Part shown: in pieces, positions 131 through 2,386 of the stretch
Numbering within the stretch: the first letter of the stretch is position 1
Layout of the letters: the number at the start of each line of letters is the position of its first letter
Source of the DNA: Bifidobacterium pluvialisilvae
Lineage (GTDB): Bacteria > Actinomycetota > Actinomycetes > Actinomycetales > Bifidobacteriaceae
Assembly: GCF_019331695.1 (NCBI RefSeq)
Contig: NZ_JAHBBI010000017.1
Span: 1 to 33,017 of the forward strand
Direction: 5' to 3'
Length of the DNA: 33,017 nt
Program-made: the position numbers and the translations under genes
The notes under the pieces: model-generated
Told to the model about the DNA's origin: nothing
What the model saw: the letters and a program-made list of their open reading frames with translations, nothing else
Databases searched by the model: none

Positions 131-1087
131 TCAGCCGAGGCGCAGCTCCTGCTGCATATCCATCACGCCGGCCTCGGCCTCCCACAACCGAGCGTCATAG
201 GCACCCGCGCCATCGCGGACGGCCAGCTCCAGACCGGTACGCGCGATCTCATACCAATGCAACGCCTCGGCGCAATCATGCCGGCAGCCCTTCGCATCCG
301 CATACGCCCTGGCGATACGCAATGCGGCGGACCCCCAGATGTGGGGCCGCTCGTCCTTTCCCAGATCGAACGCCCTGCGGAACATCGTCAACGCGCCGGC
401 ATAATCCGGTTCGCATCCCCGTCCCTCATCAAGCATGTCGCCGTATTTGTAGCAGCCTTCGGCGATATCGGCCTCGGCCGCATGACGGAACGCCTCCAAA
501 GCCATGACGTCGGTATCCGGCTTGGGCGCGGCCTCACCGAAATTGTCGTAATACGAACGGAAATACCGTCCTTCGCAGCGGTCGTACGCATAGACGTACC
601 CCAGACACAGCCAGCCGAACGGATTGCCACGCCCCGCCGAATGACGGTAGAGAATCTCCGCGGCCTTGAAGCAGTCAAGACGACGCCCATGGTCCTTCGG
701 GGCCGTGTATCCCATGCCCTCCTCGTAATACATGCCGCCGTAATGCAACGCATCGTCGCCGTACGGATCGGATTGGTCCGCCTTGTCGCATACGGCTGAA
801 TCATCGATTCCGGCGTCATAGAACGGGACGCCGAGCGACGTCCTCGACGCCTGTCCGATGCCGAGCGGCGGTATGAGCTCACACTGTTGGACAAACGGAT
901 AGCAGTCGATGCGGTCGCGTCCCATGACGCCGTCCTCCTCCACGGGAACGGTGATGAACATCAGCGGAAGAATCGGCCCGATGATCGGATCGTCATAGAG
1001 GAACCACACATCGCCGTAATCAAGAACGGGGATGTCGTCGTGGGCATGCCACAACGGCCATGGCGCAGGACCTTCGTGATCAGTCAT
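131..1087 (-). CDS. Sel1/TPR-repeat protein, last gene of a J-domain/HIRAN operon
   Basis: A 318-residue protein with no signal peptide or membrane segment. The C-terminal two thirds hold Sel1-like (TPR-type) helical repeats, best seen at residues about 142-170 (AAEILYRHSAGRG), 197-243 (ALEAFRHAAEADIAEGCYKYG, then EGRGCEPDYAGALTMFRRA) and 252-287 (AALRIARAYADAKG). The N-terminal 100 residues are aromatic- and acid-rich (VLDYGDVWFLYDDP) and match no domain I know. Sel1 repeats normally form a protein-binding solenoid, so a scaffold or adaptor role is the best inference. The start overlaps the stop of the HIRAN-like gene by 8 nt, so the two are probably translationally coupled. The true function is unknown. 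Confidence 0.8.
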   Translation of the reverse strand: MTDHEGPAPWPLWHAHDDIPVLDYGDVWFLYDDPIIGPILPLMFITVPVEEDGVMGRDRIDCYPFVQQCELIPPLGIGQASRTSLGVPFYDAGIDDSAVCDKADQSDPYGDDALHYGGMYYEEGMGYTAPKDHGRRLDCFKAAEILYRHSAGRGNPFGWLCLGYVYAYDRCEGRYFRSYYDNFGEAAPKPDTDVMALEAFRHAAEADIAEGCYKYGDMLDEGRGCEPDYAGALTMFRRAFDLGKDERPHIWGSAALRIARAYADAKGCRHDCAEALHWYEIARTGLELAVRDGAGAYDARLWEAEAGVMDMQQELRLG

Positions 1088-1580
1088 CCAGCACCAGCCT
1101 TACCCATATGCGGCGGTAGTCCCCCAGCCGTTCCGTCTCGAGATGTTCCGCGTATACGTGTTTGCCGGCGTCCATGAGACGCGCGATGATCTCGTTCTCA
1201 TGCGCGCGAAGGTAACCGACGCGTGTCTCACCGGCATACGCCTCCACCGTCCACCGGTCCTGGGCGTCATCCGGCTCCCGTTGCAGACGAAGACGACCAT
1301 CCGAACCACGAGTCCGCAGACTCCGCAGCATGGCATCGTCGGCACCGCTGTTGTCGAACGCCCGGCAGCCGACCAGATAGGTTCTCTCCACGAGCGTGAT
1401 GACATTGGCATACGGCTGGGGAATATCGAGACCACCGTCCGTCATCCCCAGCAACGACAGTTCCCCGGAACCGCCGCCCATCGGCATCGGTAGCATTGCC
1501 GCCGATGACAGAGCCTCCTCTTCAGCCGACGTCTCCTCGGACGACGCCCCATGGCTCGCCTGTTGCGATGATTCACTCAT
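1080..1580 (-). CDS. Small HIRAN-like domain protein
   Basis: A 166-residue cytoplasmic protein. Residues 1-55 are Ser/Glu/Gly-rich and probably disordered. Residues about 60-150 resemble a HIRAN domain: a first strand with a VGC/VGT-type motif (TYLVGCRAFD, 67-76), a central LRLQREPDD strand (97-105) matching the family pattern L-x-R-E-P-x-N/D, a VGYL strand (121-124) and the following helix ARLMDAGK. HIRAN domains occur in SWI2/SNF2 proteins such as HLTF and Rad5, where they bind DNA 3' ends, and as stand-alone bacterial domains predicted to sense abnormal DNA. The start ATG overlaps the J-domain gene stop as ATGA, and the 3' end overlaps the Sel1 gene. The HIRAN assignment is by eye from motif order. 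Confidence 0.72.
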   Translation of the reverse strand: MSESSQQASHGASSEETSAEEEALSSAAMLPMPMGGGSGELSLLGMTDGGLDIPQPYANVITLVERTYLVGCRAFDNSGADDAMLRSLRTRGSDGRLRLQREPDDAQDRWTVEAYAGETRVGYLRAHENEIIARLMDAGKHVYAEHLETERLGDYRRIWVRLVLDD

Positions 1581-2386
1581 CGACGCTTCCTCTCCTCATT
1601 GAGCAGATCTTCATACCGTCCATCGTAATGCCGCCGACTGGCCATGCACTCATCGATGCGTCCACGAAGCCCGGCGACCTGTCCGCTGACCCATTCGGGG
1701 TCCCGCAGACGTTCGGCCAACGTGTATGGCTCGGTGGAAGTCAGCTGGAGCAGACGGTCACGGACGGCATCAAGCCGGCCGTTCAGCAGTTCGATCTCCA
1801 TGCGAAGTTCGTCATCGGTCAGCCCATCAAACCGTTCGTCGTCAGTCATGTCCATGGTGGCGGCGTCAAGTGCCCTCAGCATATCCAGAGAGCCGTCGGC
1901 GAGCGCGTGCTGCGCCATCGCATAGTATTCGGCACGTTTCCGGTCCCCGGGATATAAGTCCGGGTGGAGGCGTCTGGCCAGTTTCCGGAACAGTCGCTTC
2001 AGTTCCCTCGCCTTGTCCGCATGCATCGGCGAGGAACGGTCGCGTCTGCGTAGCCATGCGTCCATGCTCTTCGCTTGTTCGGCGACCTGTCGTCGCCAGT
2101 CGGCGAACTCCCGGTCGAGCGCCTTGTCAATGGCTTCACCGTCAATGGGTTTGTTGCTGTTCATCGAGGCACGTGCCATCGCATACCGTCGTTTGGCGCG
2201 TCGCGCGGCCAGCTGCTCTTTGAGTAATCGTACGCGCCATACGCCTATCTTCACCCAGAAATCCGTTTTGATTTGCGGAATGACCTGCTGGTTCAGCTCC
2301 TCGATTCGCGCAACGGTCTGTGCGATGTCGCCCCGTATCTCGGCAATTGACGCCAGCAGCGTCTCGCGGTCGGCATCATCGTCCAT
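1577..2386 (-). CDS. J-domain protein with flanking coiled coils
   Basis: A 269-residue protein. Residues about 125-170 look like a divergent J domain: a basic helix (LKRLFRKLARRL), the diagnostic HPD tripeptide at 141-143, a PGD turn, then an amphipathic helix ending ADGSLDMLRAL. The HPD loop is what stimulates DnaK ATPase in DnaJ-family co-chaperones. There is no Gly/Phe region or zinc-finger domain, so this is not housekeeping DnaJ. The flanks (about 10-75 and 190-265) are charged and heptad-like, suggesting coiled coils. The start is supported by AAAGGA 8 nt upstream. It heads an overlapping three-gene operon with the HIRAN-like and Sel1 genes, so it may recruit DnaK to whatever those two bind. 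Confidence 0.78.
   Translation of the reverse strand: MDDDADRETLLASIAEIRGDIAQTVARIEELNQQVIPQIKTDFWVKIGVWRVRLLKEQLAARRAKRRYAMARASMNSNKPIDGEAIDKALDREFADWRRQVAEQAKSMDAWLRRRDRSSPMHADKARELKRLFRKLARRLHPDLYPGDRKRAEYYAMAQHALADGSLDMLRALDAATMDMTDDERFDGLTDDELRMEIELLNGRLDAVRDRLLQLTSTEPYTLAERLRDPEWVSGQVAGLRGRIDECMASRRHYDGRYEDLLNEERKRR

Follow-up and report, generated by a model that had tools for sequence, protein, structure and literature searches.

Overlapping genes for a J-domain, a HIRAN, and a Sel1-repeat protein in Bifidobacterium pluvialisilvae: a possible DNA-directed DnaK co-chaperone

Organization of the locus

The window analyzed here is the entire 33,017-base contig of Bifidobacterium pluvialisilvae, taken from a source genome of 2.66 Mb in 21 contigs. 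Three genes occupy positions 131–2386 on the minus strand: gene J (1577–2386; 269 aa), whose product has a J domain set between long coiled coils, gene H (1080–1580; 166 aa), encoding a HIRAN protein, and gene S (131–1087; 318 aa), encoding a Sel1-repeat protein. J and H overlap by 4 nt (ATGA; 1577–1580, minus strand), and H and S by 8 nt (1080–1087, minus strand), exactly as the initial annotation had placed them. Upstream of J lie an aldo/keto reductase gene on the opposite strand and then MerR and FHA genes; the sequence 3′ of S is limited to 130 bases.

Tight spacing was found to recur among relatives. Across 33 J–H loci, the start of H falls between −16 and +45 nt relative to the end of J, and the 8-nt H/S overlap with ATG occurs in 26 of 36 H–S neighbor pairs, both spacings being best cases because the script took the start nearest the upstream stop. 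A conserved end of H may be partly responsible for the recurrent H/S overlap. The dN/dS values relative to B. simiarum were estimated as ~0.24 (J), ~0.24 (H), and ~0.15 (S) by the Nei–Gojobori method, and are rough, with dS >1. Since relatives of J, H, and S stand side by side at 30–79% protein identity with such low dN/dS values, the open reading frames are more than chance.

The J protein

The J-domain core (residues 123–164; positions 1895–2020, minus strand) comprises helix II, the HPD loop, and helix III, as delimited by a Pfam match to residues 125–161 and by predicted helices, with the HPD motif itself at residues 141–143 (1958–1966, minus strand). The Pfam DnaJ match of the window's J (E 4.9e-4, 20.6 bits) lies under the curated cut-off of 27.8; among relatives, the match in L041 (29.7 bits) lies above it and those in L042 and L034 below. 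A profile built from 15 J proteins matched DnaJ domains of solved structures, with a best E of 4e-6, and in the structural model of J (pLDDT 91.7) helices 123–140 and 149–164 flank the HPD, with long coiled coils on either side. Thus, the HPD J domain between coiled coils proposed in the initial annotation, below cut-off by Pfam alone, is borne out by profile and model, and the HPD between modeled helices II and III is as expected of J-domain (DnaJ/Hsp40) proteins.

The HPD is intact in 29 of 30 J proteins, 15 from the J alignment and 15 from a second, distant family described below, the exception being L045, which has HPS. The window's genome also encodes HSP70 (DnaK; E 1.2e-239). To judge from the motif, J would be able in principle to recruit DnaK via its HPD, and might stimulate it.

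Several variants of J were observed. The HPS-type protein (L045:1008–1904), in which DnaK recruitment is perhaps lost, is preceded by an AAA+ ATPase gene. Another J protein (L041:4674–5969) carries an additional N-terminal ~160 aa outside any Pfam family, and one relative (L038:7379–7945) is without a J domain and without an adjoining HIRAN gene. At L044:5229–5951, beside a HIRAN gene, the J tail is fused to a different N-terminus, terminase-like by eye; this fusion is either a prophage junction or the product of a chimeric contig.

The H protein and its putative DNA-end pocket

The HIRAN core of H (residues 95–145; positions 1146–1298, minus strand) is defined by a Pfam match of E 3.7e-6 and 27.1 bits, which passes the curated cut-off of 24.7; the relative in L042 matches far more strongly (E 1e-18, 67.4 bits). 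Furthermore, a profile of 15 H proteins matched PDB entry 3k2y (protein lp_0118) with E 2.6e-17 and human HLTF with E about 2e-6, in agreement with the earlier description of the middle protein as HIRAN-like.

The H proteins were compared with residues N91, Y93, and D94 of the HLTF 3′-end pocket. The D94 equivalent is Asp in all 44 H proteins compared and the N91 equivalent is Asn in 38 of the 44, while the Y93 equivalent is Tyr in 10, Phe in 9, and His in 8. The window's H has D, D, and Q at N90, N91, and Y93, respectively, and keeps the D94 equivalent; the N91 and Y93 equivalents are also altered in all four of the remaining named Bifidobacterium sequences of the alignment. On these residue comparisons, DNA binding is plausible for the H family, and strict HLTF-like 3′-end recognition by the window's H is doubtful because two of the three checked pocket residues are changed. 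A published survey likewise describes the HipN HIRAN domains of Actinobacteria as exceptional in not retaining most DNA-contacting motifs (PMC8262856).

The S protein

From residue 107 on, the modeled S protein is a Sel1 helical solenoid (residues 107–318; positions 134–769, minus strand). A Foldseek search of the model against the PDB gave 31 matches at E ≤0.001 (best E 2.6e-6), the top ones being Sel1 proteins, and upheld the Sel1 assignment of the initial annotation, for which the Pfam match (E 6.6e-6, 26.9 bits) falls below the cut-off of 30.7. The N-terminal part (residues 1–106; positions 770–1087, minus strand) is conserved and was modeled with low confidence (pLDDT about 30); an LP-x-[IV]W-x-T...GR...YP-type motif within it recurs in many, though not all, of the second family's S proteins. 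A further Sel1 protein is encoded immediately upstream of J in B. simiarum (L009:8329–9036), giving the order Sel1-J-H-S.

The altered pocket of the Bifidobacterium H proteins, together with S being the best conserved of the trio in the Bifidobacterium dN/dS comparison and with housekeeping neighbors at several loci (by eye), would fit general protein quality control, in which J and S act as a client-specific co-chaperone and the H fold binds protein and not DNA. However, the invariant D94 equivalent and the Asn kept at N91 in 38 of 44 H proteins speak for DNA, as do the recurring DNA-enzyme neighbors described below, and this reading is considered distinctly unlikely.

Occurrence in Bifidobacteriaceae

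Of 189 genomes searched in the family, 7 gave an H and J turned up in the same 7, namely those of the window, G170, and B. simiarum, B. rousetti, B. aesculapii, B. stellenboschense, and B. choloepi. S adjoins J-H in every one of them, with the order J-H-S in six and S-J-H in B. choloepi. Type I restriction genes lie near the trio in B. stellenboschense. The aldo/keto reductase, FHA, and MerR genes that neighbor the trio in the window are also present in B. simiarum (by eye), where a cluster of genes, most of them unassigned, separates the reductase gene from the other two. Three adjacent genes without a Pfam family were observed upstream of the B. simiarum trio (L009:2639–6913), the third with a weak match to DruD in PADLOC.

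Occurrence beyond the family

Across 396 genomes of the phylum, the J profile matched in 14, with full-length J genes in 5 besides the window's genome; all 5 adjoin a HIRAN gene, and none has S beside it. The H profile matched in 39 of these genomes. Of the 30 H loci listed, 6 (that of the window included) carry J, 2 more carry S, and 1 is truncated at a contig end; in the remaining 21, no J or S gene lies within ~1.5 kb. The S profile matched in 6 of the 396 genomes, 4 of them strongly, and an H of this kind is present in all 4 as well, although in G254 S and J-H are on separate contigs.

The second, distant family is that of G254, which we presume to be Eggerthellaceae (138 genomes); H was found there in 39 genomes at 42 places. 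The 30 places covered (about 1.5 kb on each side) comprise 15 with J-H-S in that order, 13 with H-S, one with J-H, and one in which H stands alone, with a contig end about 0.8 kb away. The 13 include L119, where the contig stops at the position at which J would stand. L138 and L139 also show J-H-S and lie outside the 30, so that 32 of the 42 places were covered. Joint conservation, whose absence the initial annotation had named as grounds for refutation, is thus seen in all 7 family carriers and in 15 of the 30 second-family loci. The trio is not obligate, because some loci have J-H but lack S and others have H-S but lack J.

In IMG/VR contigs, J directly precedes H in five of six H loci, four of them distinct, and the sixth, L044, has the J tail only. 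L046 shows the order S-J-H through a Sel1-type protein before J; this protein, truncated at the sequence edge, has a weak Pfam match (E 0.007) and gave no match to the S profile.

Pairwise distances of J and H were found to be correlated across 33 loci (Spearman 0.61), with none of 500 permutations as high, while J and S were weakly correlated (Spearman 0.30, P about 0.014, 24 loci) and H and S showed no correlation (rho −0.02, 24 loci). These correlations indicate co-inheritance at most, because they carry no species-tree control, and the H–S result speaks against tight co-evolution of H and S.

Carriage as prophage or plasmid cargo was rejected by searches of phage and plasmid records. The window's H and the J of L034 had no match in 50,697 phage records, and the window's S and the same J had none in 72,556 plasmid records. 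The H of L034 matched 3 plasmid and 10 phage records, and the 5 of those 13 that were searched with the J profile gave no J. In PHROGs, only families of unknown function were matched, none of them by the window's J. On a Paracoccus plasmid, genes for Ku and DNA ligase D were observed in the vicinity of a HIRAN gene (L051:588–935).

Flanking genes

Flanks were compared for 24 J-H loci (L009–L013, L033–L037, L039, L041, L042, L045, L046, L130–L136, L138, and L139). Restriction, methylase, NERD-helicase, Vsr, or hipA genes, confirmed by family searches, were found in 9 of the 24 flanks (L012, L013, L033, L034, L035, L041, L042, L045, and L134, the L134 methylase being a fragment at the sequence edge), a count that has no matched background and to which virus-collection contigs, possibly biased towards restriction and defense-type genes, contribute. 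No such gene was identified in the other 15, for which ORF lists were inspected by eye and family searches were run on chosen genes.

DNA-related neighbors also occur at H-S loci of one genus (L099, L100, and L137), which lie near AddAB-like helicase-nuclease genes, a Y-family polymerase, and DUF2130, with AbiEii also present at L099; family searches confirmed the L137 nucleases and polymerase and the L099 DUF2130 and AbiEii, and the rest were assigned by eye. DUF2130 stands immediately before J in L036. An ADP-ribosylglycohydrolase gene comes immediately after J-H-S in L136 and after S-J-H in L046 (2 of the 24 flanks), and lies about 5 kb away in L045; a DUF3990 gene was observed near J-H-S and its ADP-ribosylglycohydrolase in L136 (L136:5590–6291). 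Several loci lie amid housekeeping genes (by eye). Overall, the flank evidence leans towards genome conflict or repair.

These neighbors bear on a sensing-type antiphage system, in which the trio would detect foreign DNA or perturbation of the DnaK cycle and then activate or assist an effector encoded nearby. Such a role would suit the patchy presence (7 of 189 genomes) in differing surroundings (by eye), the defense-type genes confirmed in 9 of 24 flanks, and the match of the L034 H to the PADLOC candidate PDC-M03B (E 3e-17), and one defense protein, bNACHT25, is reported to need host DnaJ (PMC12169576). However, the trio itself has no effector-like enzyme, several surroundings are of the housekeeping kind, the window's three proteins match no PADLOC family better than E 0.035, and the window's H and the distant J have no counterpart in the phage records searched. 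An antiphage sensor is regarded as somewhat unlikely.

A hipA gene accompanies S-J-H in B. choloepi (L013) and J-H in L033, with hipB beside each by eye, and HIRAN–HipA pairs have been described (PMC8262856; PMC11706625). This would accord with toxin-antitoxin-like control, in which H would supply the HIRAN component of a hip kinase system, with J and S as its handlers. Yet hipA is present in just 2 of the 24 flanks, and no HipS-like part was found in the window's H, whose weak PADLOC match (PDC-M03B, E 0.035) is confined to the HIRAN half; such control is thus very improbable.

Relation to known systems

The HIRAN domain of HLTF/Rad5 resembles H through the profile match to HLTF (E about 2e-6) and the kept Asp94 equivalent, whereas H is without a helicase and two other pocket residues are changed in the window. 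DnaK co-chaperones of the DnaJ/CbpA type that act on nucleoprotein complexes have, like J, an HPD J domain through which DnaK could in principle be recruited, whereas the J domain of J lies inside coiled coils and a separate HIRAN protein would be what directs it to DNA.

HIRAN has been described as a neighbor of hip kinases (PMC8262856; PMC11706625) and, in ADP-ribose-linked systems, of the ARPP protein (PMC9503650). The HIRAN–hip kinase systems (HipN, HipL, and the PADLOC candidate PDC-M03) likewise combine a bacterial HIRAN with a partner gene and a proposed sensing of DNA ends, whereas in J-H-S the partners are J and Sel1, no HipS-like part was detected in H, and the unit has no kinase. 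The two-gene ARPP–HIRAN neighborhoods place HIRAN beside a protein otherwise found in ADP-ribosylglycohydrolase-centered systems (PMC9503650), and the glycohydrolase directly following the trio in L136 and L046 resembles them; unlike in those neighborhoods, it is adjacent in 2 of 24 flanks and ~5 kb off in L045.

No description of HIRAN with a J or Sel1 partner was found in the open-access literature, a scope with most subscription journals outside it. One paper co-mentioning HIRAN and DnaJ (PMC7464499) has HIRAN only within a reference title, and one co-mentioning HIRAN and Sel1 (PMC3482391) contains HIRAN a single time. J-H-S is thus apparently an undescribed, conserved union of known domains.

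A proposed mechanism

J-H-S is best, if tentatively, read as a DNA-directed DnaK co-chaperone serving genome defense or repair, with a probability of roughly 0.4. The domains, the HPD, the coupling of the genes, the joint inheritance of J and H, and the DnaK gene are observed; complex formation, DNA binding, and DnaK stimulation, and with them a client, a purpose, and a phenotype, we infer as follows. J, H, and S would be produced as one translationally coupled unit, which H would address to DNA through its HIRAN domain, probably at exposed ends or single strands, while the Sel1 solenoid of S would bind a protein client or hold the parts together. J would offer its HPD to the cell's DnaK, which would then load onto the protein complex present there, dismantling or altering it. 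Such an activity might be used in genome conflict or repair, for example in unloading stalled or invading nucleoprotein complexes.

This co-chaperone reading draws on the HIRAN, J, and Sel1 matches, the near-invariant HPD, the J-H(-S) linkage, the HSP70 gene, and the DNA-related neighbors. Against it stand the altered N91 and Y93 equivalents, the non-correlation of H and S, the HPS of L045, and the mixed flanks, as well as the 13 of 30 second-family loci in which J was unseen, the 5 distant J-H pairs without S beside them, and the 21 of 30 listed HIRAN loci of the phylum without J or S within ~1.5 kb. A more specific version, in which a HIRAN sensor of DNA ends or single strands and a Sel1 client adaptor fire Hsp70 at complexes on foreign or broken DNA in defense or repair, with ADP-ribosylglycohydrolase added in some lineages, is considered unlikely. 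The initial interpretation—a chaperone brought to damaged DNA or stalled complexes—is, as a whole, partly supported.

The conserved, coupled partnership of a bacterial HIRAN protein with J offers a concrete, testable link from DNA sensing to the DnaK machine, in a system small enough to be purified whole. If it serves defense, J-H-S would represent a new way of using a chaperone against invaders; if it serves repair, it would be a dedicated remodeler of stuck complexes.
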